The notes under the pieces were generated by a model that saw nothing but the letters and a program-made list of their open reading frames with translations, did no database searches and was not told where the DNA came from. A program made the translations under genes and the position numbers. From NCBI GenBank assembly GCA_021234155.1, contig JAJEKV010000226.1:310001-374000 (forward strand): DNA of 64,000 bases, in the 5' to 3' direction. The stretch is from Isoetes taiwanensis. Taxonomy: Eukaryota > Streptophyta > Lycopodiopsida > Isoetales > Isoetaceae. This document shows positions 12,914 to 50,418 of the stretch, one piece after another (the stretch's first letter is position 1; each line of letters begins with the position of its first letter).

Positions 12914-13057
12914 GGGTAGTTGCACGAAAGGGTGTCTCATATTTCTTGTATAATGTAATAATAGGTTACACTAGGTTAGTGTAGTTAGGGGGAAAAAATT
13001 AGATTTTACATGACATTTAATGCTTAGCAACCAACGTGAAAGATTCCATATTTAATT

Positions 13058-16000
13058 ATGGTAACTAACAAAATTCGTGCAATGAATTTGAAATTGGAAT
13101 CACCTTCGATTTCGGACTCCCTCGAATTCTCCTCCCAACAGATTCAATCGTTTCCCGGATCAATCGAACCTAAAAAATCGAGAAAGCCCCATTTTGATCT
13201 TGTTTTCAAATGGCGAGAATTCATTGTTTTGGGTGACGAAGCTATGGAAGAAGGTAGGTTGGAAGCAAGAAGAGGAAGACTCTCTTGATGAATCGGATCG
13301 GGGCAAGAACCCAACAGGTTCCCAAAGGGAAGTCAAAACGAAAATCTTGTGATCTTTGGATATGTGACAAAAGGTGTAAGAAGAAAGGTGAATGAAGTTG
13401 TTGATCTTATTGTGCAACAAGTCTCTAATTTGGACCCAAAACACCAAATTACTTTTGCCAAAAGACTCTTGCAGGATAAAAGGTTATGTTTTTAAATTCG
13501 AACCCATCCTTGGGAAGCTTTGAAGAGGCTATTGTGAAGGAAAAATGGTAAAAATCTCGGGGATGGCCTTCAAGAGGTGAAAAGAGCAAATAGCAATGAT
13601 AAACTTGCCGCTAAACACTCTGTTCTTGCTATGGTAGTTGGAAAAGAGGAGAATCATTGAAGCGTACAAAGGCTGACCAAATTGTTGAAATTACATCCAC
13701 GGAATATGAGCCTTGCAAAGCAAAAAGAAGGAAGGAAATGTCATTAGGTGGAGCAAATCTATGGGCATTAGCGGTCGAAAACCGGAACAAATGTTGTAGA
13801 TCAGGCTATGAAGAATTTGATTGCCCAATTTTGGTTGGATAACACAAAAAAGTCTCACCAAAAGTTAGAGATGTGATGAAGAAAAGGACCACGAGGCAAT
13901 TCAATACATTGACATTACGGTACAAATTATACATTGCCTTGATTTGATTATACAAATATATGTACTTGGGTGTTATTCTTTACATTGAAACAATATTCAT
14001 AATTCTTTCTAATTTACCTTATGAGTGTAATAATAGGAAAATTTACTTTGCTTTATGGTTGTACAAGTTTGAAATTACATTTTACATTTCTTCCCAATTG
14101 TTCAAATTCATTCTTGAGGTAGACTCTTGAAAGTAAGGATGTGAAAGATGTAGGATGTGTAATAGATGTGAAAAGCTGTAATAAATGTAGGATGTGGACA
14201 AGATTGTAATTTGTATGTGAAGCTATAGTAGATGTATTTGAAATCTTGAAAATGTATTGATGTAAACTCTGTTTCTATGCATTTTCTGCTGAATTATATC
14301 GAACTTTGTGGATCAGCATCCAGATGTTGGAATTGGCATTAGGCAGTTTATATACTTAAACCAACATGCATCACGGAAGCTAAAAGAAAGAAACACTTCT
14401 TTGTTGTGTCAAACACGAGCAAAAGGCAGATTTGTTTAGGAAAGCATTTAATATGATGAGGTCAAAAGTCCATGAGAACTGCTCTTGCAAGCTGTAGAAT
14501 TTGCAACTTCGAGAAGACAATCTTTGGAATTTGTCGAGGCAAAGAAAAGGACATTTGAGAATGTCGGCATGCTTTGGAGAGCCATGGTATGTGATAGAAG
14601 CGAGAAGATGAGGAGTGGCACTATCTAAAATGTATAAGTTCAGCTTGTGGAAATTGTGGAAAAAAAAAGATTGAATTATGTCAAGGGAGAAGAGTGAAAG
14701 CATTGAAGAACACTGTTGCATGGCAAGCCTATAGCTATGTGAATGAACCTTGAAGAAAGGAAGTTCTCGAAGGCTGATTTATGATTGACAAGAACAGCGA
14801 TTACAAAATGCATGTTAGATAATATGTTTGATCATATGGCTAAATTTGTACATCATAACTTTGTGGCACATTGGCAAAGCAAGCAATTCAAGGAATCCAT
14901 TAGAACACCGGGATGATCTTTGTACTATCGGTTGTTGATTTCTCGAGAGAATTATACTCTGAAACCATTCAATGAGATCAAAGCGCAACATTGGTACAAC
15001 GAAAGCGGATCAGCATTTTAGTTCATATCACAATGTTCAAGGTTAATAGAAAAATGAGGAAATGTGTGCACTTCTTCATTTCGGATGATAAGACACATGA
15101 TACTCACTTTGTGCGAGGGATGCATTCGGGTTGCATCTTAAGTGGTTTGCAAGAAAACGATGGCGGTGAGAAGAAGTTTCACTTAGTTTGGTGCGACGGG
15201 TGTGCAGCCCAATTCAAATCGAGACGAGCATTCTATCATGTAACCCAGGTATCATCATGAACATAAAATAAGAATGCAATGGAATTTTTTGGTTCGGGGA
15301 CATGGTAAAGGCACACATGATGGAGAAGGGGCTATTAGCGAAGCTATGGCTTGAGGCGAGAACAAAGAAAGAAGGAGGGCAAGGTGGTCATAAATGCTAA
15401 AAGCGCTTGTGATGTTTTGAGAGAAAAAAAAATCAGATGTGGAGCGGGTTTTTGGGAGGTTACTAACATTGAGAAGACAAAGACTTGGCGTGTTGCCAGT
15501 CAAAGGTGTGCAGACAATTCATTGCGTCTCATCGATAGACCCTAGTGATCCAACCAAGCTACTATGCAGGTCTCTTTCATGTTTTTGCAAGGCATGCATA
15601 AGTTTTGATTGGCCTGCTTGTGAGAATGTTGGCCATTGTGGTAAGTGGGATTTAAGAAAACTAGAGCCTACAAATCAGAACAGTCTAGGAGATGATGAGA
15701 ATGAGCTACAAGACTTGTGGGCAAATGACATAGACAATGTGGATGAGACAATCCAAGTTGGAGATTACTTAGGATCATTAGCGACTCAGGACAATTATGA
15801 AGGGGTGGCCTATTATATCATACAATGCGGAAGTGAAACATGCTCTTGAAGTAGGCGTCATGGATGACTATGGGAATCAATTTTACCGTGGTGATGAAGT
15901 TATATCAGGTGAATATTTTCAGCTAATACCTGGCTGCCATCAGAAGTATAAATTACTTAAAGGAAAGAAGGTCCTTGTCCATCCCGAGTCCGTGATAGGG

Positions 16001-16105
16001 GCGAGATTTCCATTGGAGCCAGTCCAGCATAAAATAAAAGGTGTTGCTTATGCATATGAATTATCCAATTCTTGGCACGAAATGCTTTTGGAAATGCGAG
16101 ATTGA
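13058..16105 (+). pseudogene. DDE-like transposase, copy A (element 1)
   Basis: The gene is spread over several exons or frame-shifted pieces. Signature blocks, in order, are a helix-rich segment ending near AQFWLDNT (about 13820), VVDFS-ENYTLK (about 14930-14975, carries an extra base), HFFISDDKTHDTHF (about 15075-15115), VWCDGCAAQFKSRR (about 15190-15230), and MEFFGSG-HGKGTHDGEGA (about 15280-15340, one extra base). The C-terminal domain, about 15700-16100, contains GNQFYRGDEV and ends at a TGA. The Asp residues in the first three blocks are likely the catalytic acids. These blocks also occur in copies B and C here and, as I recall, in animal repeats (ENYTLLEQDEIQSAHW-type). At least three frameshifts make it inactive as read, unless some are sequence errors. 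Confidence 0.75.
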
Positions 16106-16912
16106 TTGTAGATCGTATGTAAACCGAAGACGAGTTTTTTATGCACGGTCCTAAGGCGAAAAAAATGACCGTCACATAAAATTGTTTACCATATTTCTTG
16201 TATTCATCATTTTCATGCCAAATCAATTGTATTGTGTGTGCTCTCTTTGTATGAGGAAGGTTGTGTGAAAAGTCCGGCCGAGATATCTCTAAGCGATTGG
16301 GAGTAATTGAATACATTGACTAGGTCAAAACTAGGTCAATGACCCGACGAATATAAAATACATCGATTTACATTCGGTGGACATCAAATCAAACTTTTAT
16401 GCATGATCTTTTTTTTATGCATGATTTTTTTGTGCCTTATCTTTGAACTGAAAATTGCGGACTTACATGCTACTATACAAGTCAAGAATGTGCAAATATT
16501 GTCATTTAAAAGTGGACAAAATTTTTGTATTTAAAGATGAAGATCGGTTACAATATGTTTTAAGTTTACAATATGAAGAAAAAGTTACAATATGTTTTTA
16601 CAAAATTTCACTTCATCTCATGTCAATATGTTACATGTCAACTCCTTTCACATATCTTCATTTAGTTCCACATGTATGAAGTTGGGGCCGCATCGATAAA
16701 CAACATGAGATGGTTAGTACACGTAATACTTTTACTTAATCTTTAGAAGACTATTAATTAATTACCTCTTAAAGTATGCAAGGCGGGAGCTCATGATGAT
16801 CCGGCGTGTCTAAATATGCCGCCATAGCGGCCGATCTCATCGTCATGGGGGTGGTGATATACGGGCGAGAGCCCGTGCTTTCGCCGAAGAACTTGTCTCC
16901 TCGTCATCGAGG

Positions 16913-19900
16913 TCATCGACCATACATGTGTGAGTGCATGCAGCCCGCAATTGCATCCGGGGAACCGCCATACTCATATGTGATCCGCTCCATAACCAAC
17001 TTGTCAAATGCATCAATTGGTGAATGAAACGGGTGATCCCTCACGTATGTTGAAATCTCATCCGCATTGCGGAGCCCTTCAATCCAGAAGTAGAGTGCGG
17101 TCATAACGTTAGCATTTTGTTTGTTAAGTGTCCATGGTGGTATACAAATGTATGAGTATAGGGGATTTAATGAGCACTTGTATTGTGCATCATCAAACAG
17201 CAGAGCCCTCCTATGATACTTGGGAAATTCAGTTGAAATAACTTCCAAGTTCTTCACATAAAGATTTTTTGACGGGTTTATTCTAAATGGAAGCACCCAA
17301 TATGAATTTCAGATCCGGAAAGCCCTCTACTTTTAGCTGCTCAATTATGCTGCATACTAAACTAAGTGGCAGCTCGGACCATATCCCCAAATCAAAGTTA
17401 ATGGCATGTGCATAATAGAGGAAGACCCTCATGCCAGGCCCGCATATATACACTCTATCCCCTATCTCTATCGGCCTAGCATCTTTGGTTTTTGCAGGTG
17501 AGAACTCATCCTTGGATGTCGACAACCCAATCCTCCATCAATATCAAATACTAAGACCTTTCTTTTTCCCTAAACCTGCCAACAATAAAACATGATAAAT
17601 TTGAATAAAAGAAATGTTTAAATTGAATCGGTTTACATTCCATCTGCTCATGAGAATCGGGTTGACATGCACAATATACCAAATTTATTTAGACCAGAAA
17701 AATATAATTTAAACATTCAAGACTGCAAGTTCAAGGACATGTCGGAGGCCGAAGTGGCATCCAAGGAAGATTTAACTACCAAATGACTCTTCGGTGCATA
17801 CGCCGTGCTTGTTCTATAGAAGCTATCGTTGAGCAGCCACCACTCTCACTAATGAGAGGCGTCTATCAAGACTGCCGTCCGTGAAAGGGCATACTCATAC
17901 ATAAACCAGTCTTGTGTAATCTGCAAGATATAATAATGTGCCAATGTTAGAATTGATCATTAAAAAGGAAATAATGTGCCAATTTCAAATTGATCATTAA
18001 TAATGTACCTTTGAGTCTTTTCCAGAAATAAGTAGGTCAACAAACTTGTGCATAAATGCCATCACAAACAGCCATCAAGATGTCAAGTCAGGTTGTTGTG
18101 GTACTTCAACGTAATTTATACCTTTGATGTTATTTTTCCTCAAGTAATCCATTCCTTTGGATGTCTGACTCATCAAAATCTGCGTGTGTAGTCTGCGCAT
18201 ATAAAATAGTCATGTAAGATTTAGCAAAACATTGAGATTAATTGAAATAAAAAACATATCAAAGGGATGTCATACCCTCTAATTGCCTTTTCATTTGTGG
18301 CAAAGCCATTTAAAGGGTTCGGGATATGCATATTTGGTGCATCGAGAACTTTAGATTTGCTCGGCAAGAAGAGCAAATATGGCCCGAAGTGTTCGTTCTC
18401 AGAAATGCAGTGCGAGGATGTATTGGCATTTAGCCATGACTAGCCCAAAGAAGTCCTTGCTTTCAAGGTCTCTGGCGGCAGACTTGATGCATCATTTCTT
18501 TTCTTGTTGCTTGAAGCCTCCTTGAATAAAAGTAATTGTAGCGGAGAAGATATGGATTCTGCTTTTCCACTCTGCAGCGACTTATCATGAAAATACCTAA
18601 TTGAGCACAAGGTCACAAATAAGAGCATATTCGTAAAAAAGCTTTCCAAATCTTGATAAATGCTTCAAAACACGGAAAGAATGGAAAATCACCTGCCATA
18701 GAGTTCCACAAGGCGGTTTGTCATCCTCGAGTTGGTCATGCTAACAAAGCTTCAATGTCTATATCAACCACTTTCATTGGAGGTTTAGGCTGGCTATTCT
18801 TGAATGGGAAAAGTGGAGTGCGAGCCTTCAATGTCTTCATGTTCTCCACCATTCTACAAAGAATAATAGAATGTTAACTTGAAATGATTACAATTGTTTT
18901 AAAAAACATACACAAATACCTTGCAAGCAGATTCTCGATTGAGCGGTCTTATGCCTACAAAAATAAGTGTATGTAGTTGAGAGATGTATTCATATGCTTA
19001 ATATTAGAATTAGGCATTAGCATAGAAGAGTTAATGATGCCTATAATTACAATTCCAAGAAATTAAACCCTAAACTAAACACCCAAAACAGGCAAGTCTC
19101 ACCTTTTTACATTTGTTGCTTCCTTTCTTGAATCTACCTTTCTTTTTTAACTTTTTTGGCTCGTCCTCCTTTTTCCACGAACATCTCTACAGCCTTTGTT
19201 GCAACTTTGCATGCCCTTTCAAGATCTAGGCTCTCCAATTCAGCTACCCCTTTCACTTGTAGGCTCTCCTCTCCCGTGTCATCTACCACCAACAAATTAA
19301 AACCCCAATACAAATTTGGTATAGAGATAAAGAACATTAAAAAAATATGCACCCGATATTGAATTCTTTTGGTGGCGTTTTTAATGTCATCAGATTGCTC
19401 ACCATTTAAATCAGCCCGTTCACGGAAAATGGCAAGTTCGGGCTTTTGAGTTCAAAGACTAAATTAAAACAAAGAAGAATGTAGTTAGAGACACTTACTA
19501 TTGAATGGCTCGTGTTGCTGCTGCAACAAAGCCAACTCTCTGTTCCACATTTGGGATCTCACCTACAAGTGGGATCTCACCTTCCACATCTTCTATCAAG
19601 TTCTGCTCTGAATGTGCTTTGTCCTCCACATTGTCAAAGATTGTTTCTTTCACAGGCGACCTAGATGTGGATGGAGTTTCACTACCAAGGACATCATCCT
19701 TTCCTGATGTTTCAGCTCCAGAGGACTCCTCGTATGTCAATTTCAACCCTTTTCCATGAAATTTCTTCGTGCAACCTAAACCAAGTAACAATGAAGTCAC
19801 AAACATGCAATGCAAATATACATCAATACTACATACTACCTGTCAATGTGGCTGCTGGTTTCTTGATGCTATCCATATCTACATTGAAGAAATTTGTGAG

Positions 19901-21585
19901 TAAATTAATTGTATTATCTTGTTAACATGTACATCCCAACATGTCAAAAGGTAAATGTAAAGGAAAAATTCATGTCAATGAAAAAAAGCTAAAAAATTTG
20001 CAAACTAGATGTAAATCAGAAGTGGTAAAACAAATGTACACTTATAGTATAATAATATCTACCAACATGACTGCTGTAAATGTAATAGAAAACTAGAAAG
20101 ATAGATGTAATCATAATCTCATTTGCATTCTAGCATGTTATATGTACATATAAAGAGAAAATACATAAACCATTATGAAAATTACGGATGTGAAAAAGAA
20201 CTGCTCAAAACAAAGATCCAATTACAATTAAAATACATTCAAGTGCATTTATTCTAAGGCAAGAAAGATTCAAATCTATGTACAAATGAAACACTTAAGA
20301 CTGTATGTAAAAACTTCAACAGATCCATGCATTCAATAAACAAGGTCTTCTTCGACTGAACCACGGCATTCCAATGATTCGGCGTAACTCTTCCGGCAAA
20401 GAACATTCGTGGTAACGCAAGACCGGTTCGTTGTAGACACCCTAAAGGCTAGACATAATAGGCAGTGAGGGATGTCCACAACATACCATTATCACCATGG
20501 TAGACTCGAGGGGAGTCATTACTGGTTTGGTACATGTTGTAGTCACATGAGATGTGGATGCTATCAGATCTGGTCCATGAACAAAGCGAGGATGCAAATG
20601 ACATTACACCGATTTCTCCATTTGATCTATTATCTCATTGATCCTGCTCATACTACTGTTATTTGCCTCCAGATTTGTCGTTATGTCTTTGATAGAAGCA
20701 TCCAATTCAGCCAATTCATTGCAAAGGTTCTCAATTGGTTTCAGCAAGGCATCCATCTCCATAACCAAACTTTTCTTTTCTTCTTCAAAGTGGCTGCCAA
20801 GGCAAGTTGCAAATCAATTGGTTGCTTGCTTGCTCTTAAGGAGTCCAGCTTGTCCATTTGAACTTTCACTTGAGCATCCTTGCTTTGTATAACTTCGCTC
20901 AAAGTACTCCTTTCAGCCTCTAATTTACATACATCTGATTCTATTATCTTTCTTGTTTTTTAAAAGATTTCAATCGATTGTTCAAAGTTAAGGAGTCATG
21001 GGATCTCCTTTCTAGCAATTCGCCATCAATTTCATGTGTTGCCCTTCTTCTTTGCTGATTTACCATGCATGGCTTTCACATTGGAGGATTTCAAGGTAAT
21101 AACTTCAGTTAGGTCAGACTCCTTATATGAGCAGTTTTAGCAAATGCGCAGGCACTCTCTTTTAGCTCTTCCCAATCAACATTTACGCCCTTGGAATGAA
21201 GAGCATATGCTCGAAGCAAAGTACAGGGGTATATGATGGTTTGCTACCTCTGTCTCTATTAAAACAAACTCATACATTTTAAAGAAGTCTTGCATCCATC
21301 TTGGCTCGATCCTACTCTCCGATAACCCCTCACCGCTGGAGCTTCACTCCCCCAAACTCCTTGCACTATTTGTAAAAGCCCGGATAAAGAGTATCAAAAT
21401 GGTTGCTTCTAAGGTGTTTTCTTCATTTACCTTCTCAAACTCGGGCTGATGTACTTGTAGCTTTCTCTTTCTTTGATGGAGACGTCCCACCCTTCATTTT
21501 CTTTTGCCGCATGCTTTTGGAGACCTTTGCATTGGCTTCAAACGTGGTGATTTCTGGGGAAACACGAGATGGAGGCTTTGTCATG
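16913..21585 (-). pseudogene. Coiled-coil plus FCP1/NIF-like HAD phosphatase (element 1 cargo)
   Basis: On the minus strand the gene starts near an ATG at 21585, within 350 bp of the right end of element 1. The N-terminal part is basic, then a helical block (about 21120-21290), a long coiled coil (MEMDALLKPIENLCNELAEL region, about 20600-20770) and acidic linkers (about 19500-19790). The phosphatase domain is at about 16913-17575. Motif I is KVLVFDIDGG (about 17533-17560), motif II GIWSELP (about 17365-17390) and motif III RRALLFDDAQYK (about 17175-17205). The C-terminal stretch DEISTYVRDHPF fits the end of plant FCP1/NIF domains. Frame changes near 17285 and 17530 and several introns interrupt it. 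FCP1-like enzymes remove phosphate from Ser/Thr, classically in the RNA polymerase II tail; the substrate here is unknown. Confidence 0.7.
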
Positions 21586-21930
21586 ATCCCAAACCTAAGA
21601 ACTAAACCACGATACAAGGCTCGGCCTTGACCCTTCTAAGAAGACCAAGAAGCTTATGATGCAGAAGGGAACTAAGAATCGTCAAGTAAGGATTCTAATC
21701 GCCTTTGCTCCAAGACAGAGCTTTGCTAACAGAGAGAGAGTTCGGGAGTGGCTTGTTGAGCGGGACGGAGAAAACACACACGTTCAAAATCCTTCCAAAT
21801 GTGGTTCCCCCCAAACCTCCAACCATTAATTGTGGTATTAATGACCCCCCTCCAAAATATTGCCTACATTTTGCCTTTGTAAATGTAAAATTTGGGCCCT
21901 TTTTTTATCCACCCTTTCGTGCAACTACCC

Positions 21931-21934
21931 CTAA
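21931..21934. repeat. 4-bp target duplication, right of element 1
   Basis: CTAA, identical to the copy at 12910-12913. Confidence 0.75.
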
Positions 21935-36156: not shown

Positions 36157-36616
36157 CACCATGTCCCACACCACACCCTACCATCTCCCACCACTACACT
36201 CTACCATCTCCCACCGCCACACCCCACACCACACACCACCACCACACTCCACCACCACCACCACCACCGCCACCACCACCACACTCCACCATCACCACAC
36301 CACACCACCAGACTCCACCATGTCCCACACCACAATCCACCACCACCACACTCCACCACAACCACACCACACCCCACCACCACACCCCACACTCCCACCA
36401 CCACCACACACCACACCCCACCACCACACCCCATCACCACACCCCACCATGTCCCACACCACGGTCCACCACCACCACACACCCCACCACCACCACCACC
36501 ACCAAACCCCACCACCACACCTCACCACCACCACACACACCACCACCACCACCACGCACACACCACCACCACCACACACACCACCACCACCACCACCACC
36601 CCACCACCACCACCTA
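36157..36616. repeat. CAC/CCA microsatellite, ~460 bp
   Basis: Nearly uninterrupted CCA and CAC triplets with a few TCCCACACCAC variants. It probably lies in an intron of the element 3 phosphatase gene. Open frames of His/Pro/Thr here are repeat products. Confidence 0.9.
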
Positions 36617-38140
36617 CAAATGTTGTGTGGTGTGTCTTTATCTATGTTGTGTTGGTGTGTGGTATGTGGTGGTGTAGAGACTACCTTGTGTTGTGTGGTG
36701 TGTGATTGTGGTTTTCCATCAAGACGCGGGCTTACTATGTTAGGAGGCTGACATATACGTAGTGTTTTGTTTTCTGAGACTATGGCGGCGGACTTGTGAA
36801 GGAATGGTTGGCTGCAACATCAAGCTAGGTTTGATAGATGCAAGCAATGATTGCAAGCAAGCGAGGATAGGAAAAATGATATCAAAAGAAAGATTGAGTT
36901 GATGGAGCATAAAGCATCAGAAATTAGAGCTGATTTGGATGGCAATCAATCATGACACAAACCGAAGCGGCGAGAGGGTGTTCGGGTTGTGTTTAACCAA
37001 AGGATGAAGAGCTAAATGGTACAACGGTGTTGCCCGGGCTGAAACAATTAAATAAAGGAATTAACAAACTGAAATTGAGCTAAAGGCATGTGAAGACTTC
37101 TTCTTGAGCTGCTACCTCGAATGCAAAGATTTGAGATTTTTTTTACGGCGTAGTGGTCATGACACTCCTTTAGATCCCGTGACTTCCAATGCTTCCCGAG
37201 GCAGAAGAAGAGGGTGATGAAGGTTGTCCATTTTGTGGGCGTTATGCGAAATGGGAGGGTAAAATGTTGCGGTTGTGATAGCGAATCGTCCATCAAGATA
37301 TCACATTCCATGTCTATCACACCATTTGAGGTAAATATTATCATCTCTAACCGTCGTCTAAAGACTCTATTGATTTTGAATTTGTTTTGCGGACACTCTA
37401 GAACCTGCTGCAGCCCGGTTTGTGGCCACATTATGAGTGAGACATGGCTTTTGGCTTTTTTGGTGTTCGAGTGGTACCACAAGAACCAATAGACACAAGT
37501 AAATCAAAAAGAGGGGTGAAAGCAAGGTTTGGGAAGTCTCGATGCTTGTACTCGGGTCTCTTTCATCCTGGCTTAGTCTCTTCCATCTCGTTTGGCTTAG
37601 TCTCTTTTGCTTGTCTCATTTATTGTATCTAAAAGTGCCCCCGGTATGAGATCGCTTAAATCATTTTAGGGGCACTTTAGATATATATAAACGAGGAACA
37701 TCAAAAAAAGAGTAAAAAGCCCTGATCGCGTGACTCTCTTGAATGGTTGTCAACTCACGGGCTTGATATTGTTCCTTTGCAAACAATATAGATTATTTTG
37801 CAAACAAGTGCCTTAACTAATGTTTCTTGATGTTGTCACGGGTCTATTGACTTAGTGTTTTGCGAGTGCAGAAATTTGAGACCCACAATTTGCATGTTGT
37901 CACGAGGTCCATGAGTTATCCACGCCTCGATGGGTTATGAGGCGCAAGATACCTCGGTTGTACCTAGAATTCACCCCATTTGATATTCCTAAGTCAATCC
38001 TTACCGGCCGACGGCGTGGAGACTCCAAAACGAAATTTGGATAGTCAATCGAATTGGTCGTATCAAGTAAGTACCGATGCCACATACATGATTTATTTTT
38101 TTGTATTTTTCTGTGGTCTTCCTCATTTCAATTATGTTGC
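36617..38140 (+). other. Decayed middle of the element 3 phosphatase gene
   Basis: Contains the coiled-coil block and the CPFCG block described with the phosphatase gene. The part at 37500-38000 has no recognisable coding sequence. Confidence 0.4.
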
Positions 38141-38250
38141 AGAGATAAATGCTACTGCAACTGGAAGCCATCACGAAGAGATTCCTAGTGCATCTGATTT
38201 AGGGGGGAAAATTAATTCCCTTGAGATTCATTCTGTACGGGGTCCTTCAC

Positions 38251-38255
38251 CAGAA
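38251..38255. repeat. 5-bp target duplication, left of copia
   Basis: CAGAA, repeated exactly at 43646-43650. Confidence 0.9.
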
Positions 38256-38752
38256 TGTTGGAATCAAAGACTTTTGAGTCCGGGAATTGAACCCAGAGGA
38301 AAAACCAGACACAATCTTCTCCCTTAATCTTCCTTTAAATCCACAAAGGATTTACCTGTTCAAACCGAATTAAGACCCACAAAGGATTCCACACAGGACT
38401 AAACTATAATATCACAAAGAACTGAAATATTATCACACAGAATCGGACTCTGCCTTTTACTACAGAAACCATTAAATAGCAAAAGATCAGCTTATCAACC
38501 TGCTCCAGCACCAAATCCGGCAGCATATAGGAGCTCCAAGATCGGATTCCAAGAACAGAACCTTCACCGAGATCCGGCCCAAAATCTCCGCGTCGTAAGG
38601 CGTTCTGTTTTCAAAAACCCTTGAACTGTTCACCTGTACATTTTCGTCTACCTTTTTCCCTTTTTTATATTTTTCTTCCATGCAAAATCCATGTCTAAAT
38701 GCTAACCAGGTGTATTGATCAAATGCCACCACTTAGGCATGTAATTCCAACA
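38256..38752 (-). repeat. Copia 3' LTR
   Basis: 497 bp with TGTTGGAAT/ATTCCAACA ends. It precedes the polypurine tract at 38753-38763 and is homologous to 43147-43645. Confidence 0.95.
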
Positions 38753-38767
38753 ATCTCCCCCTCATGC

Positions 38768-41216
38768 CTAAGTGGTAATGTTTCCAATATCTTCTATTCC
38801 TAAATCCTTTTGAAATACCATAAATTTAGATTCTGATAAAGCTTTTGTAAGAATGTCAGCACACTGTACCTCAGTAGGTCTATACAAGACGTTTATTTCT
38901 CCATTCTTCACTTGATCACGTACAAAGTGATTGTGTAGCTCAATATGCTTTGTTCTTTCATGTAAGACTGGATTCTTAGTCATGGCAATACAACTTGTAC
39001 TATCACAATATAATGGAGTTGATCCTGGCAACAGTTTTTTCCCATGTGGTTTTTAATCTGGGCCATGGTGATTATACTTTATTTTGTTTGTAAGGGCTTC
39101 GGTCCATGTTCTGGTTAGGGACTTCGGTCCTGCTTTGTACTTGGGTCCCATAACCCGATTGGGTTCCGCGGACGTTAAAAATTTCTTCCTTCCTTCCTTC
39201 TTGAATAATTCCTAACTCTGCTAGAAGTCGTCTAAGCCAGACAATTTCTCTAGATGCAAGAACAACTTCTTTGCATATTAAACCTGGCGTGGAAAGCGCA
39301 ATAGAGGGTTGTTTCTTACTTTTCCAAGAAATAGCAGACCCTCCTAGCAAGCAGACATATCCCGACCTTGATCTGCGAGTGTCTTAATCACCGTGCAATC
39401 TTATACCATGTTCACGTCTGAATACAAGACCATAATTCTGAGTGCCTTTCAAAAATCTTAAAATACGTTTTGCGCATTTCCAGTGGCCCTCACCAGGATT
39501 ATTTAAAAAATTGGCTTAACACATTTACTCCATATGAAATATCAGGACGTGTACAATTTGATACATATTGAAGACATCCAATAAGCTCTCTATAAGGCCG
39601 ATTCATCATGATATGCTCTTCTTCTTTTGTTTTGGGACACATCTCGTGAGGTGATTCTTTGCCGATTTTGCTCTTGGAGTGCTTCTGAGCTTACACTCTA
39701 TCATTCCAAATCTTTTTAAGCATGCCTAAAATATTTAGTTTTGAGTAATAGCTATAAATCCCTTCTCTTTATCTCTATAAATTTCCATACCTAATAATTT
39801 GTTTAAGTTCTCCCAAGTCCGACATTTGAAATCTTTCCTTTAGAATATCTTTGCAATGATTTAAGCAACCAATATCATTAGCGACCATTACGCAATCATC
39901 TACATAAACTGCAATTATGCAAAAGCATTCATCTTTCCTATAGATATAGACATTTCCATCCATATTTAATTTTCAAACCCATGCGTTTTCAAATGATTGT
40001 CAATACATACATACCCTTGACGTGGAGCTTGCCTTAGGCCATACATATACGCAATTTCCACACCTTATCTCAAATCAACCCGGTATCCGGAGGCTGCTCC
40101 ATATAAATTTCTTCATCCAAGTCTGCATTGAGAAATGCCGTGCAAACATCCATATGATGCAACTCTAAGTTGTGCATGTTAGCAGTAGCCATAATTGCCC
40201 TGACACTTGTTAATTTAACAATTGGGGAGAAAGTTTCATCATAATCAATACCTTCTTTTTGAGTAAACCCTTTCGCCACCAGTTTGGCTTTAAATTTCAC
40301 GAGTTTGCCCATCCGCATTTTGTTTAATTCTAAAAATCCATTTATTTCCAACAACATTTCTGTTAGTAGGTCTGTCAACCAGTTTATACGTTCCTGTACG
40401 TTCAAAAGAGCTTAACTCTGCATTCATTGCATCCTTCCATTTCTCGGAATCTAGACTTTCTATGGCTTCATTATAGTTGCTTGGAGTATCAATTTCTAAC
40501 AGACATACATAGGGGGAATTACCTGTTCACCTTCCTCTCTTTCTTACGTTTTGTTCAATGACGCTTTTCCTAGTACTTCTTCCCGTCTCATCTCTTCCAT
40601 ATTGTGAAGTATCAAAAGATATCCCCTCTTTAAGTAATTCAGCTTCAGTCCTTCTCCTACGTCTTATTGTCTCTGGAGCTGGTTCCATTTCGTTATCAGT
40701 ATGCTCAGACAACCCTTCCTGTTCAGCTTCTTCTTCTGCTTGATTGACAATTTCTCTTTCATCCTCATCATCAAAATAATCTATCGGTTCCCAGTTAACA
40801 TCTTTCTCTGCATCTTTATCTGCATCTCGATCCTGTTTATTAGTACTTAAAAGTCGATCTTTGTATAATAAATTTTCAAAGAAAATGACATCTCGACTTA
40901 TAATCACTGTCTTTTTATTTGGATCATAGAGCCTATACCCTTTTGATTTCTTATCGTATCCAACAAAATATGTTTCTTTACTTCTATCATCCAATTTTGA
41001 TATATTATCACCTATTACCTTTGAATATGCTAAACAACCAAAAGCTTTAAAGTCTTTTACCGATTGACGTTTGCCGGTCCATAACTCATCTGGAATCTGA
41101 CCATTTAAGGCTTTGCTTGAGATCTTATTTTGAATATAGAACGCGGTATTTACAGCTTCTGCCCATAAAAATTTTGGAAGACCTGCATGCTTTAACATAG
41201 CTCGAGCTGCTTCCAT
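38768..41216 (-). pseudogene. pol: Copia pol: integrase C-terminus, reverse transcriptase, RNase H
   Basis: Reading down the minus strand: integrase C-terminal region with FLWAEAVNTAFYIQNKI and GCLAYSKV (40860-41216), an acidic linker, then RT (40070-40405) with AKLVAKGFTQKEGIDYDETF and MDVCTAFLNADLDEEIYMEQ. The YVDD box is in IIAVYVDDCVMVAND (about 39890-39930). RNase H is at 38768-39350 with ISWKSKKQPSIALST, CDSTSCIAMTKNP and HIELHNHFVRDQVKNGEI. Frames are broken at about 40405, 40060 and 39770, and about 40 bp between 39031 and 39072 are unrelated. It is not functional. Confidence 0.9.
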
Positions 41217-43032
41217 TACCGTTCGATTCTTTCTTTCAGAGACACCGTTACTGCTTTGAGGAGTACCCTCGCAAGTTAATTGCCTTTTGATTCCACGCTT
41301 CTAAACAAAATCTTTTAAACTTATTTGATAAAATTACTCTCCCCTCTCTCGATCTTAAACATTTTAATTTAGCTTTTGTTTCACGTTTTATACGCAAGAT
41401 AGGCTTTAAACGAGTCGAACACTTGACTTTTATGAGCTAAGAAGTACCACTTAGCTTTTTTTGTATAGTCATCAATAAATGACACAAAATAATATTTTCC
41501 ACCAACACTTCTAACTCTCATAGGCCCACATACATCCGAATGCACTAGAGCTAATTTTTCATTTACTCGTTCACCCTTCAAGGGAAAAGGCTTTCTACTT
41601 TGTTTGCCCAACATACAACCATGACCGCAGGCGTTTTCCTCACTATTATCTATAAAGTCCAAACCATCCAATAGCTTGTGTTTTCTCATAAAAATTATAT
41701 TTTTCAAGTTAGGTGTGGCCTAATCTTTGATGCCATAATTCCATAGAGTTTTCCTTTCCAACTTCACTTGATAAAATGTTTATACTTCTAGGACAAAGCT
41801 CAAAACGATTTCCAATTCTTCTTGCATACAATACTATTTTTCCATTATCATGAACTATGCACATGTGCTTGTCAAACAAGACTTTATAATTTTTATCAAC
41901 TAAATCTGCTACAGAGATTAAGTTTTTTATCATCCCCAATACGCACAATACATTATTAATGGTAATGATTTTTTTCCATCTTCTCCCTCGAGTTCTAACA
42001 CACCACAAGCTTCTACATTTTGTTTTTCTCCATTAGCCATACGCACACATCTGAGCTTACTAGTTTCAAGCTTTCTTAATATCTGCGCACTTTGCATCAC
42101 GGATTTTTCAGCTCCAGAATCTATAACCACGGGGTTAGAAATATTTTCATGACATAAATTTGACAAAACATATGACTTTACCTCCTCCTCAGGAATTTCT
42201 TCTGATACAGAACCTATAGTTGGCTTTGAAAAGGTAACACTCCTGGACGCACCTCTACTAGAAGACCCCCTAAAGCTTCCACGTCCTCTTCCCCTTTTTG
42301 TACACATATTGGCTAGATGGCCAGCTCCTCCACAAGCATAGCATGAACGGCCTCTGATTCTAGTACAATTTGGCTTTATATGTCCAATTTCTCCACATCC
42401 ATAACACGTTACATCCTTACTTCTGCCTCTTCCTCTCCCAAAATATAAAATATTATCTCCCCCTTGATCATAATTTCTTCTTGCCTCTCTTTGTGTAATT
42501 TCAGTCCTTGCAATACTTATAGCTTCTTCTTTAGTTCTAGCCATCGATGCGAATCAAAGATGCAATATTTTCATCATATCGCGCAAAAATACATCGAGAT
42601 ATAAAGAATTTTTGATTGAGCGAGAAGAGGTGCGACACCTTCTAAATCCATAAATATTCCTTCCATTTTATCAAATAACTCAACTAGATCTTGACCACTT
42701 TCATATTTCAACATTCTTAGTTCTTGTTCCAATTTATGTCTACGAGATGCGGTTAACTGTTCAAATTCATTTAACAAATACGCCACATATCTCGATGGAT
42801 CCATATTATGAATTGAAGCTATAATACCATAACCAAGCTTGGAAATGATAATACCTTTTGCTTGAGCTAAATCTTTTTGCGGCGACCTTTGCGACCTTTC
42901 TTTGGTCTGCGGCAGACCTTTTGCCGATTCTGCGGCTTCATTCTTCATAGTTACACGCCTTTGCTTTCGGTTTACGTGAGAGGGCCGGACCAAATCCCAC
43001 AGCCCCGCTTCCAAAGCTTTCTCAACTTTCAT
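41217..43032 (-). pseudogene. gag: Copia gag, protease and integrase core
   Basis: Gag (42574-43032) has YVAYLLNEFEQLTASRRHKL. The next part (41930-42544) has two zinc knuckles, CYGCGEIGHIKPNC and CYACGGAGHLANMC, and the protease motif VVIDSGAEKSVM. The pre-integrase block FELCP and LWHQRLGHT follows. The integrase core (41381-41707) shows LVHSDVCGPM and SFIDDYTKKAKWYF; the later SDxGGE region near 41350 is damaged (RSREGG). Several frameshifts. Confidence 0.9.
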
Positions 43033-43146
43033 CTTCCATGCTTGAAAACCGAGCCTCCTTTATACACCTTAGCGTCGACTAGAATAGAAGCGACAATCTT
43101 ATTAGATGCCATCTCCCTTTTAGACTCAACTTGCTCACGATGCGGA

Positions 43147-43645
43147 TGTTGGAATCAAAGACTTTTTGAGTCAGGAATTGAACCCGGAGGAAAAACCAGA
43201 CACAATCTTCTCCCTTAATCTTCCTTTAAATCCACAAAGGATTTACTGTTTTCAAAGCAATTAAGACCCACAAAGGATTCCACGAGGATTCGAACTATAA
43301 TATCACAAAGAACTGAAATATTATCACACAGAATCGGACTCTGCCTTTTACTACAGAAACCATTAAATAGCAAAAGATCAGCTTATCAACCTGCTCCAAA
43401 GACCAAATCCGGTGACATATAGGGCTCAAGATGGGATTGAAATGAATGGACAGGCTTCACTAGATCCGGCCCAAAAATCTCACGTCGGCCGCGTTCCTGT
43501 TTTTCAAAAACCCTTGAACTGTTCACCTGTACATTTTCTTCTACCTTTTCCCTTTTTTTATATTTTTCTTCCATGCAAAATCCATGTCTAAATGCTAACC
43601 AGGTGTATTGATCAAATGCCACCACTTAGGCATGTAATTCCAACA
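43147..43645 (-). repeat. Copia 5' LTR
   Basis: 499 bp, homologous to 38256-38752. On the minus strand the next bases (about 43130-43143) include ATCGTGAGCA, a degenerate form of the usual initiator tRNA-Met primer site. Confidence 0.95.
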
Positions 43646-43650
43646 CAGAA
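43646..43650. repeat. 5-bp target duplication, right of copia
   Basis: CAGAA, identical to 38251-38255. Confidence 0.9.
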
Positions 43651-44400
43651 AAAAGTTTTGGTGCTGAATATGAGCCAAATGCGGATGCAGGTAATGAAGT
43701 TGACAAAAAACCCGGATCTGGACAAGATGCGGGTGCGCTCAACGAGTCCAATACAACCTCAACCAACAAAAACCAAGAGGTTAAGCGAAATTCTCCTTGT
43801 TTACGGATTTTAATGGGGTTTTAGGCAAGTTTTATGACTTGAAAAGAGGATCCTGCATCGGTAGGAGCAGTGACCATCCGTAAATTGAACCATCAAAGTT
43901 CGAGTTTCGTGCCTGGATTTCAGGAGTTCTTAGAATGGTGTTTTTCAAAATTTGAGATTGCATTGTGGTCCAGCATGGCTAAGAGTAATGTTGACTTGTT
44001 GTGAGAAAGTTGATAGGAATATAAGGGCGATTTCTTTTTATTTGGAATGGGATGATCGCACCAACACAAAAATAAAAAAGTGGTTAATAAGCCAATTTTC
44101 CTTAAGGATCATCCAAAGTGTACGTGAAATTTTGGAGATACGGGTGACAAACACATTGTTGATAGATGACGAGATATAAGGGTTCGCCAACCACCGAACA
44201 CAATGATATGTCCAAATAGTTTTGCTCCCGACGGGTTGGATTCCAATTTCTTTTTGAGCAACTCAAACCATGGTGGAGGGACTTAATTAAGGTTTGAGAA
44301 AGTGTGTCGAACTATGTGAAGGAACATCAAATGTGGAACATGTGGGATTCAAGAGTCGGCGCAACTTGCATGAAAATGCTCGACAAGTATTTTCATAAAT

Positions 44401-45879
44401 GAATCTTGTAAAACTCTTTGAAAGTCAATATAAGTAAAAAAATTTCTATGATATGTGTTGTACTTTTTACGGATTGTGAGCAAATGTTCTCGTGTGTGTT
44501 TAGAACTAGAGATGATAGAGCTTCTAGCGGTCGACTATCTAAAGCCAAATACACATCCGGAAGTGGTGCCGAGTGGGCCCCGGCGTCGTGATTAGCTCCA
44601 CCAGACATCAAAAATTTTGGAAGGCGATACGCAGTGGTTCAATGATCAATTGATCCTCCTCTTCTCAAGGTGATACTTTCATCTGATTTGTGATCATCAG
44701 GATTGTGCGGATGATATGCATATGTTCTCGGATACATGGAATACTACTTGATTCTCAAGGAATGAGCCATCCCTTTCATTTCTTTGACCCTCTTTTCACT
44801 CGACATTGTCCAAGGACACAAATAGTTACAAAACAATAAGGAAACATGTGAATCGGATAAGTGCGATTACATGTTTTTGCTCGCTTGTGATGGACATCAG
44901 CGAACCTTTTTTCGATTGTAAAGCCGCGGCGTGTCGCCTGAGAGATATAAACCGGGGATATATCACTTTAATAGCTCGGGCTTGCATGGCGGAAAGCGGA
45001 CATGTTGAGGCGTTAGTGCTTGCTCATTGCATTTTGTTGTTGTGGCACAATGACAACAAACTTTGAGTCTGAGTTCACGGAATTGCTTGGACACAATAAT
45101 TTCAGCTTTACAACCTCGGATGTTGTGAAAATTTCGAGCGCCTCTTCAAACCGATGGTCATTCATGTGGCCAGCCTGGGTATGTTAGTTTATGCACAAAT
45201 TTGTGAGGGGTACTTAAAAGGAGTGAATATATTGTTGCCTGATCTAGTAAGTCAACTTAAATGCAGCAGACAAACCAAACTCTGTTATTGACAAAGTGTG
45301 GTTAGCTCGGGGTTGTGGACATTTCAGACCGGGATCTAGTTGATGTTAGAGTGTTCATGCTTGAAGTTTTAAGATTAGAAGCAACAAAGTTTGGGCGAGA
45401 GGAACATATGTATTGGGAAGTATGTAGGTGCATGAGTCACCTGGTACTTAAATCCTTTGATATCTTTCTTATGTACATAATTGTTATTGTAACCTCGATT
45501 CATTTCAATGAAAATTCATATTCAATTCATCTCACAAACAAAGGAATCAAGTGTTCCAGGAAGAATTCAAATCTTCAAAAGAAATCAAGACAAACTCATT
45601 TTTTCACGGTGAAGCACAAGACTTCACATGAGTTCCGAAAAATACGAGAATGGTTTTACATTTCATCATCATCGAAAGAACCGGGTAAATTTCGTAAAAT
45701 TTTCTCCTCATCTAAAGGATCCAGCCTATATCAAATCCTGCTTTGGCGTTTAGTTGGTGGCATGTGAAGTCGATTGCGGATACGTGTTGTGAATACTATG
45801 CCTAAAGGCGTCTTTCTTTGCAAAGATCATAGGCGATGGTTGATCTTGTGCCCTTCTTGTAATACATACCTTCTATGAC
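44401..45879. other. Region between the two convergent genes of element 3
   Basis: No clear gene. The 3' ends of the phosphatase and transposase genes must lie at its margins. The equivalent gap in element 1 (16106-16912) is also AT-rich and empty. Confidence 0.35.
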
Positions 45880-48800
45880 ACTATCACCCGAGGTACCATG
45901 TTCCATTGAGTTGGAAGTCTTTCTCCACTATCCATTTTGGTTTTGTGCACATCGAATCCAAAATTGAACCCTCATCATTCCCTTTCGAGCAACGACGAGC
46001 AAAATTATCACCAACTCTAAGTGCCTCTTGCTAACATCGTGGGATTGGAGGAGAACAAGGACCGCTGGATTTTACTTGGTCCTCAATGTTAGCATGCACA
46101 TTGAAGGATGGTACAATAACTTGAAGTTTCCAATCATCAACGTAGTGCTTGTTCACTAACCGTCCCCATGCCATCCAAGCGTAGCTGCGGGAAGCATGAA
46201 AGTTCCCTCGTGTGCAAGCTGCCACGGAGATTGAGGATTGAATGCATGTACACAATGGATGCGCCTAGTGTCCAAAATCCTTTCTGCACCCCATGCTTTC
46301 TTTCTATCTATATCCTCCACCTTGACTTCCCAAAAGAACCTTTTTATATTCTTCCTCTTTATTGGTTTCAGATGTGTTCATCCACTCCCGGATGTTCCAC
46401 AAGTAAACATCTCTTCGGGAACTTCTACCACTTCATGAGCATTACCCAATTTTATGTTCTTTCGTATTTTTAATTGCGGTTGTCTTAACCATCTCTTCAA
46501 CTCGGCAGACTTTGCCATCGTGTTCACCTTTCCGTGGTTAGAACCAAAAAAATTCCACATCATATAGACATCCGATTGTCGTTTGTGTACCTAGCCACAA
46601 AGTAAAATGGTCTAGAAGCCTTGAATTGAGATCTTTGCGCACCATCGAAAACACATAATGTCTTTTGGAACCCTTCCTTTCTGCTCCGGATATTTGTGGT
46701 GCTTCATGAAGCGGTGTCGCCGAACAAAGTATCGTGTTCCCTATCATCGATACATAGTAATGTGTTTCCTTGATAATCTCATCGCCCGAGTCATACTGAT
46801 ATGTTATTTGAACCAAATGGTAATCGGGTTATTGACCCGGTATCGATGTGCACCTCCTCTTGTTCCTTGAATGTATAGTTCTCGCAAAATCCACTACCGA
46901 GAGACATGCATCTGGCGGGAGATTCTCCGAAGCTCCTTAAAGGCATTTTACCGCCATTGGTTTTTGAAATTATCGTTGGAAAGATTTTTAGACGCGCTCT
47001 TTCGGTTTATCCGAAGCTCCTTGGGTTGTCTCATTATCTTGATGAGTCAGGTCTCCTACCGAACTTCGAGGCGTTGTCTTTTTCATAGTCAATGTACTCC
47101 CATTTCCTTTCCCTACCGCCACTTCCTTCCATGGACAGTCTGAAACTTCTTGCTCCCCACGACTCACAATTTCCAGGGATGCACCTTCTTGTGAAACTCA
47201 TCTAATTCACTCTTTGGACACAATATAGATCTCCACAAGCTTCCGTACTTGCAATTTTATCTTTGGTGCCCCTGCATTGACCAAGTTCATGTGATCTACA
47301 AACATGGCGGTTGAAGTGCAATTCTTGGGATGTTTGGTTCTCATCCCATTGAGTCCATCCACTAGCATTTGCATCCTCACGTGTTGAATCACACGGCAAC
47401 TATTGAAGTCCAATTTCACCACAATTCGGGTTTTAGCTTCTCAAAAGCTCGAAGTTGAATCTTAATTTCGGATGTTGGTCGAAACCTCTTGAACAATAGC
47501 ATCTGCATGAAATGAACACTAAGCTGTTAGGATGTGTATACCACACCAAAACCATGCACCATACCATACCCCCACACTCATCATATCGAGCGAGCAGCAC
47601 CTTAGTGCGTGTACATTACCACACACCACACCACACCCCATCACACACCATACCATTCACCACACACCATACACCAAATGGTGGAGTGTGGAGTGGTGAT
47701 GGAGTGTGGTGGTGGTGGAGTGGTGGTGGTGGGGGTGGTGGTGGTGGATTGTGGTGGTGGGGGTGGTGGAGTGGTGTGTGGTGGTGGTGGGGGTGGTGGT
47801 GGGTGTGGTGGAGTGGTGTGTGGTGGTGGGGGGCGGTGGTGGGGGTGTGGTGGTGGTGGAGTGGTGTGTGGTGTGGTGGTGGGGGTGGTGGTGGTGGTGT
47901 GTGTAGTGGTGTGTGGTGCTATGATGTGGTGTGGTGGAGTGTGGTGGTGGGGTGTGGTGGGCGTGGTGGTGGTGTGTGGTGGTGGTGGAGTGTGGTGGGG
48001 AGGGGTGTAGTGGTGGTGGTGTGGTGTGGTGTTGTAGATTGTGGTGTGATGTGGTGGTGGTGGGTGTGGTGGTGGTGGTGGTGGAGGGGTGTGGCGTGGG
48101 ATGTGGTGGGATGTGTGTGCATGTGGTGGTAATGTGGTGGTCGCAAAGATGTGGTGGTAGTCTATGGTGGTGGGATAGATGGGGTGTGGTGGGGTGAGGG
48201 GGAGAATAAATAAAATTGAATCACACATATCATACATTAACATGCACACCCACATGACACCATGGACATAAGCAGCCCACACCACACCACACCACCACAC
48301 CATCACGACACCACACATCACATCACATCACTTTTATCCTATTTAGGTATGACATAAAAAAATCTGCCTAGCCTGCTCTCATAAACACTTCTGAAATTGT
48401 ACACCACGATAATAATTACATTCCTCTTCTAATGGTTAGAAAGGAACTGGGTCCTAAATCTGTTCCTTTCGATTCGATTTTGGCGTTTCATTTCCCAATT
48501 AGGCCAAATCGAAGAAGTTCATTCGGCAACATGGTAGGATCCATGTTGAGGAGATCCTCTGACTATTGTAGGGTGGCGAGGAGGGCATTGGCACATGTTA
48601 AAGCGGGGCTCGTGATCAATCTCACGAAGGTGGATATGCCTAAATCCACCTTCTTCTTTGATTTCGAATCAACCTAAAGGCATACAACAGACTGGATCTT
48701 TGGGCCTTCAATGGCTATGCTTGGAGTCAGTTGATGAGGAAGAGCTCTTAGACAAGGTCCATCGGCTTATGTTACATCTTTCTTTGCAAGGTAGCTGGTA

Positions 48801-49661
48801 TATTTGTTCTCTGTCACTTGTCGCTCGACTCTGCTTGGCGGGTTTTTGGCGAAGTGCGTACTTACCACCGGGGGATCGCGAGGAAGCACTAGCAAACCTC
48901 ATCTGTTAAATTAGGATACTACGGAAAGCTTAGATGCTTTAGTGCAAAAACAATAATTTTGGATGCACCGGTTCTCGAGCCAGTCCATACCCGGCATTTC
49001 ACATTTTAGGATCATGCATGTAAATTTAGTTCGAAAGTCTGAGAGCTTTCAATGGAAAGCCAAATTTTGTAAAGCCAAATTTTGTAAGATCCTTTTTAAT
49101 ATATCATACTTTCCATGGTAGCTTGCTTGAATCGACAAAAATTGTCTTTATTCAACAAAATTTGTATCTCGGGATGGAGTTAGTTATAGCTCAAATATTT
49201 TTAGGGGTACACACACCCGGTAAAAGGAGTACTCAATTACGTCATGTTCTAATAATATTCCAAACATTAAATATTGCATTTAGGACTAGAGTCAACTACA
49301 CACAATTCACATCATCAATTACACCACAATCAACGTACAACACAATAACCACCACATGCACCAACACACTAAGCACCATAACTAAGAAACATGAATAGCG
49401 AAATAAACTAACACGTGATTCCTCGGATAGTGGTGGCATGTTCTTCTCTTACATTTCTCTCCAATCTTCTAGTTCTAACATCCTTTTGTGTTGGGAGACA
49501 CTCACAGTGTTCTCAATCCAAAATTTTTGAATCTTTTCTATATGTTCATCTGAAAATTGCATCGAATCTTTTAGCCCTCTTGTAAGAAAACCCATTTCCC
49601 ACCATTGTGTCGATCTCTTCCCTCTTTTTCTTTGCCTTTTGCGGGTTTCTTGGGTGAACAC
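45880..49661 (-). pseudogene. DDE-like transposase, copy C (element 3)
   Basis: Minus strand, in broken frames. An N-terminal basic stretch and IEKIQKFWIENT lie at 49449-49661, equivalent to AQFWLDNT of copy A; further N-terminal sequence may reach about 50160. A block at 47207-47422 (MQMLVDGLNGMRTK) matches the cysteine-rich region of copy B. Then SVVDFA with ENYTFK-like sequence at about 46870-46910 (one extra base), EIIKETHYYVS (about 46760), and MMWNFFGSNHGK with LGNAHEVVE (about 46440-46563). A C-terminal match, MCTKPKWIVEKDFQLNGTWYL, follows at about 45900. A GTG microsatellite sits in what is probably an intron. It is the most decayed copy. Confidence 0.65.
47612..48322. repeat. GTG/TGG microsatellite flanked by short CAC tracts
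   Basis: A 520-bp run of GTG/TGG triplets (about 47678-48202) has CAC-type repeats on its left (about 47612-47676) and right (about 48270-48322), so the tract can fold on itself. It is in opposite orientation to the CAC tract at 36157-36616. The Gly/Trp/Val and His/Pro/Thr frames here are repeat products. Confidence 0.9.
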
Positions 49662-50418
49662 CTAATACCTTTCAAGATCTACATTTGGCTGATTTTGTCA
49701 CTTGTTTGAGAATGCGCACGGCGCGTGCATTTATATTACAAAGGCGACTATTCTTGGCTGCTAAGCTGATCATTGCTGGTAGAGAGTTTGATGATGCATG
49801 GAGTCAGGCTCCTTATAACGATGCTCTTGGCTTCCAAATCCTTTAATTCTTCACCTATGAATTTTTTCCAATGTTTTATCCCTCAAAAATCAAGTAAAAT
49901 TTCTTTCGCCGTGCTATCCTCCATTCTTTTTGGTGCGTTTATGGAAAGAGCGTTAGCAAATTAAGGACAATCTGGCGTTTCACTTGCACTTCTTGATGAA
50001 CGGATCCTTACGCTTGGTCGCAAGCTCAATTTTTCTTCTCTTCTTCTTTTCCTCTGGCTTTTCTTCAACATTTCTTGTTCCTTGGTTCTTCTTCATTTTC
50101 TCTGTGCCTAAAATACCGGTTTGTATCTGAGATTACCTCATTGACATCCATATCCACAATGGATTGGGCTTTCCTGTGAGGAGGGGAGCCAAAGAACGGG
50201 GCGTAGGCAAAAAGCGGGAAGGGGCCAAAGAATAGGAATTTGAATTTGAATTTTAGTTTTGAAATTAAATTTCCCCCTGGCCGGCGGGACTCTATTCTTA
50301 AATCGGCCGTTGGCGGTGCCATAATTACACTTTCATACCACAAAAGTGGTGGATGCAGCGCCACATTTTGGGGGGGCGGGGGACGGCCGGTGGAACACCA
50401 CGCAGTGCTCTCTTACCC
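49662..50418 (-). other. Right arm of element 3 with transposase leader
   Basis: Includes a possible first transposase exon (minus strand, around SIVDMDVNEVISDTNRYF at 50090-50160) and the inverted-repeat zone with CACCACTTTTGTGGTA, ending in TCTTACCC at 50418. Confidence 0.45.

Follow-up and report, generated by a model that had tools for sequence, protein, structure and literature searches.

Introduction

Among described DNA transposons, Sola elements come closest to those considered here: in the portions of text available, they are reported to have a DDD transposase, 4-bp target-site duplications, variable ends and lengths of mostly 2–9 kb, and to be present in the moss Physcomitrella (PMC10741241; PMC9033089). 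A second point of reference is provided by KIU-carrying VANDAL/MULE elements, whose helper genes with an Ulp1 domain have been linked to hypomethylation of related copies, in an account whose accessible parts also describe host-gene capture by plant transposons (PMC13317346), while capture by DNA transposons is reported, in the excerpt at hand, for mobile domain proteins of plants, of which one has a phosphatase domain (PMC5418596). Here, we analyse a 64,000-nucleotide stretch of the Isoetes taiwanensis genome (contig JAJEKV010000226.1, positions 310,001 to 374,000; hereafter the window) holding two related transposons, elements 1 and 3, in which a transposase gene converges with a second gene (gene 2) encoding coiled-coil, ULP1/C48-like and FCP1/NIF-like HAD parts. 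Our preferred reading, to which we give about an even chance, is that these are class II transposons whose convergent gene encodes a helper acting on a host partner, the HAD domain serving as a binding module for which chemistry is optional.

The likeness to Sola, which is one of description rather than of sequence, lies in the 4-bp duplication (exact in 11 of 13 elements) and in the probable DDD triad of the transposase. However, the duplications of Sola2 are AT-rich according to the available part of its description (PMC3627910), in contrast to those found here, and no ULP1- or FCP1-like gene appears in the portions of the Sola descriptions cited above, whereas these elements carry both. Placed by their features alone, the elements are probably Sola-like transposons with a ULP1–HAD helper gene. 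Kolobok, which shares the 4-bp duplication, purine ends and, in some lineages, a second gene (PMC9587614, in part), was considered for the duplication and the GG ends, but none of the 13 elements is flanked by TTAA and the Kolobok C/DxxH motif is absent: the conserved His293 of a transposase relative (P0003) has no near-invariant Cys or Asp at position −3, residue 290 being Ala. Tc1/mariner elements, which need a 2-bp TA duplication, and MULEs including KIU/VANDAL, with duplications of 7–12 bp in the accessible text of PMC10741241, were rejected against the 4 bp observed here. The KIU-carrying elements resemble gene 2 in having an Ulp1-domain helper, but no HAD domain figures in the available part of their description (PMC13317346). 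A search of titles and abstract openings in the open-licence literature turned up no case of an FCP1/NIF gene in a DNA transposon.

Results and discussion

The element 1 family

Element 1 has perfect 21-bp inverted ends, and its end sequence, GGGTAGTTGCACGAAAGGGTG, was found at 47 exact positions (26 and 21 by strand) in the 1.66 Gb of host genome searched, compared with none for the reversed control, which places these ends beyond chance. Thirteen further places were fetched, of which one (L021) was excluded for having two same-strand ends that do not bound one element; with the window copy, the sample comprises 13 elements, namely 12 of full length (8,990–9,396 bp) and one 3.8-kb internal deletion. 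Both genes are co-linear in the 12 full-length copies, one of which is the window's, and the other 11 are about 92–95% identical to it. The target duplications of this family are 4 bp long and have no fixed sequence: exact duplications flank 11 of the 13 elements (CTAA, CAAA, CTTT, GAGT, GGAT, TGGG, CCAA, GGGT, AACA, TACA and TTGC), and the other two are flanked by ACGC/ATGC, alike in three of four bases, and by the mismatched TGCT/CGGC. Since the copies diverge by only 1–5% from the majority column, the family appears to have spread fairly recently.

Transposase

The transposase of the window's element 1 is broken, and its two exons were read from open blocks of sister copies. A first round of protein searching returned two relatives, from the liverwort Riccia sorocarpa (E = 7e-38) and an oyster, and an alignment search extended these to 44: 13 from Riccia, one from the liverwort Calypogeia, one from the beetle Brassicogethes and 29 others (mostly ena, lgn and jgi). 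Three Asp residues are invariant in the alignment (D175 and D258 in 28 of 28 rows, D299 in all 25 rows with a letter, three having gaps), as is a His (26/26), and the catalytic triad is probably DDD, in the arrangement D-x(82)-D-x(40)-D. The predicted structure of P0003 (predicted local distance difference test score, pLDDT, of 85) aligned best with retroviral integrases and Mos1, and an RNase-H-like catalytic core was recognized. The transposases among the 50 rows of this comparison are of mariner type (Mos1, SETMAR/Metnase) or IstA, and the absence of other transposase families from these rows is no argument against kinship with them. A plain Foldseek search with the same model returned nothing at E ≤ 0.001, a Pfam scan of the transposase pieces matched no transposase family, and none of the 29 pattern matches obtained on scanning viral contigs with the alignment was confirmed. 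The transposase is of the DDE/D type, and its named relatives come from liverworts and animals.

The group seems very abundant in the host genome, with 9,669 first-look candidates, and several listed frames of 540–630 amino acids are stop-free inside the match. One Riccia sorocarpa protein named as F-box domain-containing (P0036, R1sor_003635) holds part of the transposase, either as a fusion or because the gene model is chimeric.

Architecture of the second gene

In the sister copies, gene 2 encodes, in order, a coiled coil, an acidic linker, a ULP1/C48-like exon, a short exon and a last exon with the FCP1/NIF-like HAD domain; we assume that these form one spliced protein. The first exon gave weak Pfam matches below cut-off, mostly to coiled-coil families. 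The ULP1 residues His, Asp, Gln and Cys can be seen by eye in sister copies, and PQQPDLTSCGLFVM is present, exactly or nearly, in the short exon of most copies listed. The HAD exon of one sister copy (L009) matches PF03031 over positions 1–159 of 160 (E = 1.1e-13; 51.6 bits, cut-off 21.8), while the window's own element 1 HAD piece had no Pfam match. A PDB sequence search with two HAD pieces as queries gave nothing, and the predicted structure of the HAD exon (mean pLDDT 48) was too poor for use.

Recurrence of the gene pair

Genome lists were limited to the best 135–150 candidates out of thousands and were condensed before pairing (HAD matches merged by hand from 139 to 114 rows, transposase from 136 to 135 and C48 from 150 to 148). 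The 114 HAD exon rows comprise 38 of element 1 type and 76 at 28–36% identity, many without an internal stop; the 3′ side was examined for five of these 76, and a convergent transposase adjoins in four (L056–L059) but not in L060. Pairing the listed rows by coordinates yielded 30 convergent transposase–HAD pairs within 20 kb, compared with 0.09 expected under uniform placement, and 42 transposase–ULP1 pairs compared with 0.12. Many of these pairs lie at a set spacing, the gap from the transposase catalytic core to the HAD domain being mostly 1.3–1.7 kb.

Grouped by identity to element 1, the listed transposases with a convergent HAD number 12 of 13 at 86% or above, 4 of 65 at 73–85%, 2 of 12 at 66–72% and 12 of 45 below 66%. 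Absences in the last group mean little, because the lists hold only the best candidates. When HAD rows of two further families, B and C, were added, at least 22 of these 45 were paired, 17 of them within 2.5 kb; the rows used were chosen by contig from three lists, which makes this pair count a lower bound. The left end of family B, GGGTAAAAGCACGAAAGGGTG, starts exactly where homology begins in two copies and shares 18 of 21 bases with the element 1 end. Exact matches to it number 41 in the genome; when 39 of the 142 family B HAD matches were compared with these positions, a convergent HAD lay beside at least 19 of them, in 18 cases at 4.1–4.5 kb. No right end of family B could be recognized in 4.6 kb of two copies, which show no mutual homology there. 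The same pair, on the same side, in the same orientation and at the usual spacing, is thus kept in families whose HAD domains are only 29–44% identical.

Catalytic residues of the HAD domain

Active FCP1/SCP phosphatases carry DxDx(T/V) as motif I, and the Asp residues of motifs I and III have catalytic roles in HAD enzymes. Motif I is FDIDGGLG in element 1 (family A), FDLNSVLG at all four family B loci, FDIQGILG at the single family C locus, FEIQGVLG in all three copies of a further family, D, and TDFNGVLG in element 3. The full motif is present in none of these and both Asp residues in family A only, where a Gly takes the place of Thr or Val. Gene 2 resembles the FCP1/SCP phosphatases (NIF, PF03031) in its full-length profile match and in the nucleophile Asp of families A, B and C, but differs from them in lacking the +2 Asp in three of the four families read and in having Glu at the nucleophile position of family D. 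At the DD position of motif III, families A and B have DD, family C has TD and family D has FE (two copies) or FG (one). Despite these changes, the frames remain open over 213–227 residues in the three family D copies and 288 in the family C copy. Judging from these residues, family D is very unlikely to encode a normal phosphatase and a phosphatase in family C is doubtful. Since families C and D both have Gln at the +2 position, loss of that Asp probably predates their split.

Selection on the HAD domain

The ratio of nonsynonymous to synonymous substitution rates (dN/dS) was computed pairwise for 24 HAD exons (19 of element 1 type, four of family B and one of family C), the pairs not being independent and post-insertion decay pulling all values towards 1. 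Median dN/dS was 0.70, 0.52, 0.46, 0.43 and 0.57 for dS of 0–0.05 (21 pairs), 0.05–0.1 (31), 0.1–0.2 (67), 0.2–0.4 (49) and 0.4–0.8 (5), respectively, and 0.47–0.88 for four family B pairs. Within the 12 full-length copies, HAD variants shared by at least two copies are more often synonymous than singletons (17:21 versus 18:59, p = 0.030), as are those of the transposase (64:109 versus 64:197, p = 0.007).

Between families, most HAD pairs are at or near synonymous saturation while 29–44% of residues are kept, and the domain is old and under purifying selection. Families C and D differ by a dN of 0.52 and a dS of 1.7–1.9, which points to purifying selection having acted after their split; the mutual ratio of the three family D copies is near 1, as expected after insertion. 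It is the HAD fold, and not so much its chemistry, that is conserved.

Loss of the HAD domain in one transposase group

In the 73–85% group, 61 of the 65 listed transposases have no listed HAD nearby, even though element 1-type HADs would outrank those at 28–36% identity in the list. The four exceptions, whose HADs share 44–99% identity with the query, look like element 1 copies that have decayed. The only member read (C1077, at locus L061) has an open transposase frame of 551 amino acids and keeps the ULP1-like exon (68% identical over 85 residues) and the stretch that follows the HAD (46%). Its HAD exon is reduced to remnants corresponding to residues 239–284 and, weakly and with a stop, 109–128, about 85 bp apart, and the HAD core is missing.

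ULP1 exons pair with at least 22 of the 65 transposases, three of which belong to the decayed copies of element 1 type. Six copies for which no HAD is listed (C1077, C1076, C223, C998, C1039 and C1053, the last with a transposase at 68% identity and hence outside the range) have a core-to-ULP1 gap of 2,247–2,336 bp, compared with 2,517–2,883 bp in 12 of the 13 HAD-bearing element 1-type copies with gaps under 3 kb and 2,369 bp in the other. The similarity of the six short gaps suggests one inherited HAD deletion. On the other hand, the gap is 1,835 bp in C220 and at least 2.6 kb in other members, and for this reason a loss common to the whole group can only be inferred.

Element 3 and other features of the window

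Element 3 is an old copy of a related family, and its right end, starting GGGTA at 50418, has no second exact match in the genome. Its left end, GGGTAAAAGCATGCTG, at 35125, matches the right end imperfectly and resembles that of family B. A Ty3-like pol frame, recognized by eye, hosts the element, and dropping one of its 4-bp flanks restores the frame. The LTR-like (long terminal repeat-like) pair within element 3 lies about 4.9 kb apart, with pieces 71–100% alike. A ULP1-like stretch that follows the HAD of element 3, instead of preceding it as in element 1, had no Pfam match, and we make no claim for it.

The sequence-only reading had described elements 1 and 3 as sharing GGGTA ends, 4-bp duplications and a plan in which the transposase and a coiled-coil–phosphatase gene converge from opposite ends. 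The shared plan is borne out in both. The ends and duplications agree fully for element 1, with its 21-bp perfect ends and CTAA flanks, while those of element 3 are imperfect, its TAGA/TAAA flanks differing at one position. FCP1 motifs I–III had also been assigned to both, and the NIF match stands for the L009 exon and, just below cut-off, for the frame-merged HAD piece of element 3 (E = 2.1e-4; 21.4 bits, cut-off 21.8), but motif I of element 3 is D-F-N. Of gene 2, the coiled coil and the phosphatase-like part had been seen and the ULP1/C48-like exon between them overlooked.

Coordinates of the features discussed are collected in Table 1. The Ty3-like retrotransposon frame, by eye, runs over 28322–35124 and from 50419 on, interrupted by element 3. 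Simple-repeat tracts of CCA and GTG type lie on opposite strands of element 3 (36156–36614 and 47618–48190, about 11 kb apart); their arms, 70–78% complementary over up to 125 nt, could form a long hairpin transcript. Tandem repeats of 22 bp (TGGAAACCTCCCCAACTTTCCC type), together with inverted versions, occupy 26237–26798, between the two elements. The G+C content of the window is 56–57% at 58001–64000, compared with 36–48% in the remainder.

Table 1. Positions of the two elements and their parts in the window.
Feature	Position	Strand	Evidence or remark
Element 1, 9,017-bp complete DNA transposon, genes broken	12914..21930	.	Perfect inverted ends, CTAA on both sides, co-linear sister copies
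Left terminal inverted repeat GGGTAGTTGCACGAAAGGGTG (element 1)	12914..12934	+	47 exact genome matches
Right terminal inverted repeat (element 1)	21910..21930	-	21-bp perfect complement of GGGTAGTTGCACGAAAGGGTG
Target-site duplication CTAA (element 1)	left 12910..12913; right 21931-21934	.	Identical flanks
Transposase exon 1 (block open in sister copies)	13040..13985	+	Element 1
Transposase exon 2 block; DFSENY, SDDKTHDT, WSDGCAAQFK, GHGKGTHDG in sister copies	14266..16303	+	Element 1
Gene 2 FCP1/NIF-like HAD exon	16794..17627	-	Same exon in L009 matches PF03031
Gene 2 ULP1/C48-like exon, second half, approximate (PQQPDLTSCGLFVM in sister copies: Gln, Cys)	18005..18160	-	
Gene 2 ULP1/C48-like exon, first half (His, Asp by eye)	18224..18664	-	Open in L015; PF02902 E=0.0013
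Gene 2 acidic linker exon	19488..19921	-	Element 1
Gene 2 exon 1: basic N-terminus, coiled coil, cysteine cluster (RING-like by eye only)	20351..21635	-	425-aa open frame in L011
Element 3, old copy of related family, with LTR-bounded insert	35125..50418	.	Ends, plan, flanks
Insert within element 3, foreign to the element (copia is an earlier label only)	~38258..43645	.	LTR-like pair at its bounds
HAD domain of element 3 (TDFNGVLG ... ALWSS ... LLIDDE), approximate	43780..44300	+	PF03031 E=2.1e-4, just below cut-off
Element 3 transposase, catalytic part, approximate	46200..46750	-	Similarity to element 1; alignment with relatives

Function of the second gene

In the reading that we prefer, the DDE/D transposase, with its probable DDD triad, would move the element and insert it at sites of no fixed sequence, with a stagger of 4 bp, while the convergent protein, with its coiled coil, ULP1-like protease part and FCP1/NIF-like HAD, would act as a helper directed at a host protein, its likeliest task being to counter silencing or to hold a chromatin or polymerase partner. 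The ULP1-like part may strip SUMO or a like modifier, the HAD fold may be a binding module with optional chemistry, and a lineage could lose the HAD because the helper may act in trans. A more specific version, which we consider less likely than not, is that the protein counters silencing by means of a SUMO-protease-like part joined to a pseudophosphatase derived from FCP1, a recruited polymerase or chromatin phosphatase fold selected across families that passed from enzyme to binding module and with which one lineage dispensed.

Several observations weigh against this helper. Its ULP1-like exon scores below the curated PF02902 cut-off (E = 0.0013; 19.1 bits against 20.7), and within the element 1 family no synonymous excess was seen among the shared variants of the ULP1 exon (p = 0.85), the first exon (p = 0.34) or the linker (shared 2:15 versus singletons 6:14). 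A protein search with the HAD rows, in which 7,993 candidates were scored, returned no relative outside the host genome at E ≤ 0.001. Finally, a role in countering silencing is suggested by analogy only, the nearest precedent being the Ulp1 helpers of VANDAL/MULE elements in the available text of PMC13317346.

The sequence-only reading had proposed that gene 2 encodes a conserved working phosphatase that serves the element, for instance by acting on the C-terminal domain of RNA polymerase II or on chromatin proteins. The transposon family itself, in which a DDE/D-type transposase converges with a gene holding the FCP1/NIF-like domain, has proved to recur far beyond two copies, and the purifying selection that it called for was found on the HAD, both between families and at dS of 0.05–0.4 (median 0.43–0.52). 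A working enzyme would also agree with the D-I-D of motif I and the DD of motif III in element 1-type copies, and with the relative synonymous excess among shared HAD variants. Conservation of the activity itself is not supported: the +2 Asp is confined to family A among the four read, being replaced by Asn in family B and element 3 and by Gln in families C and D, even family A has Gly for Thr or Val, and family D combines Glu at the nucleophile position and F-E or F-G at motif III with open frames. A lack of the phosphatase in most copies, which the same reading had named as evidence against it, is seen in one group and tells against the strong form of the claim: transposases at 73–85% mostly have no listed HAD, and the core is missing in the one member read. 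On balance, we consider a phosphatase needed by the element to be unlikely.

We judge it similarly improbable that gene 2 belongs to the transposition machinery itself, binding or synapsing the ends through its coiled coil and cysteine cluster with the ULP1 and HAD parts in a structural role. Such a role would be consistent with the presence of gene 2 in all 12 full-length aligned copies and with a HAD fold that is kept while its catalytic residues change, and other two-gene DNA transposons do encode accessory DNA-binding proteins. Nevertheless, Pfam found no DNA-binding family in the gene 2 pieces submitted, and relatives of the transposase exist elsewhere while none were found for the HAD part, although the neighbours of the transposase there were not looked at. 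Still less probable is that gene 2 was taken up from the host and rides along as a passenger without use to the element. The missing HAD core of L061 and the capture of host genes by plant transposons, described in the accessible part of PMC13317346, would fit a passenger, but the constant side, orientation and usual spacing of the pair in families whose HADs are 29–44% identical, with purifying selection between them, argue against it.

Conclusions

DNA transposons with helper genes whose job is understood are few. The related families described here, in which an enzyme-like, altered, dead-looking or missing HAD domain stands beside a constant transposase, amount to an internal experiment on catalysis versus binding. 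They also call for caution in annotation, since genes labelled FCP1-like or ULP1-like in genomes of this kind may belong to transposons.

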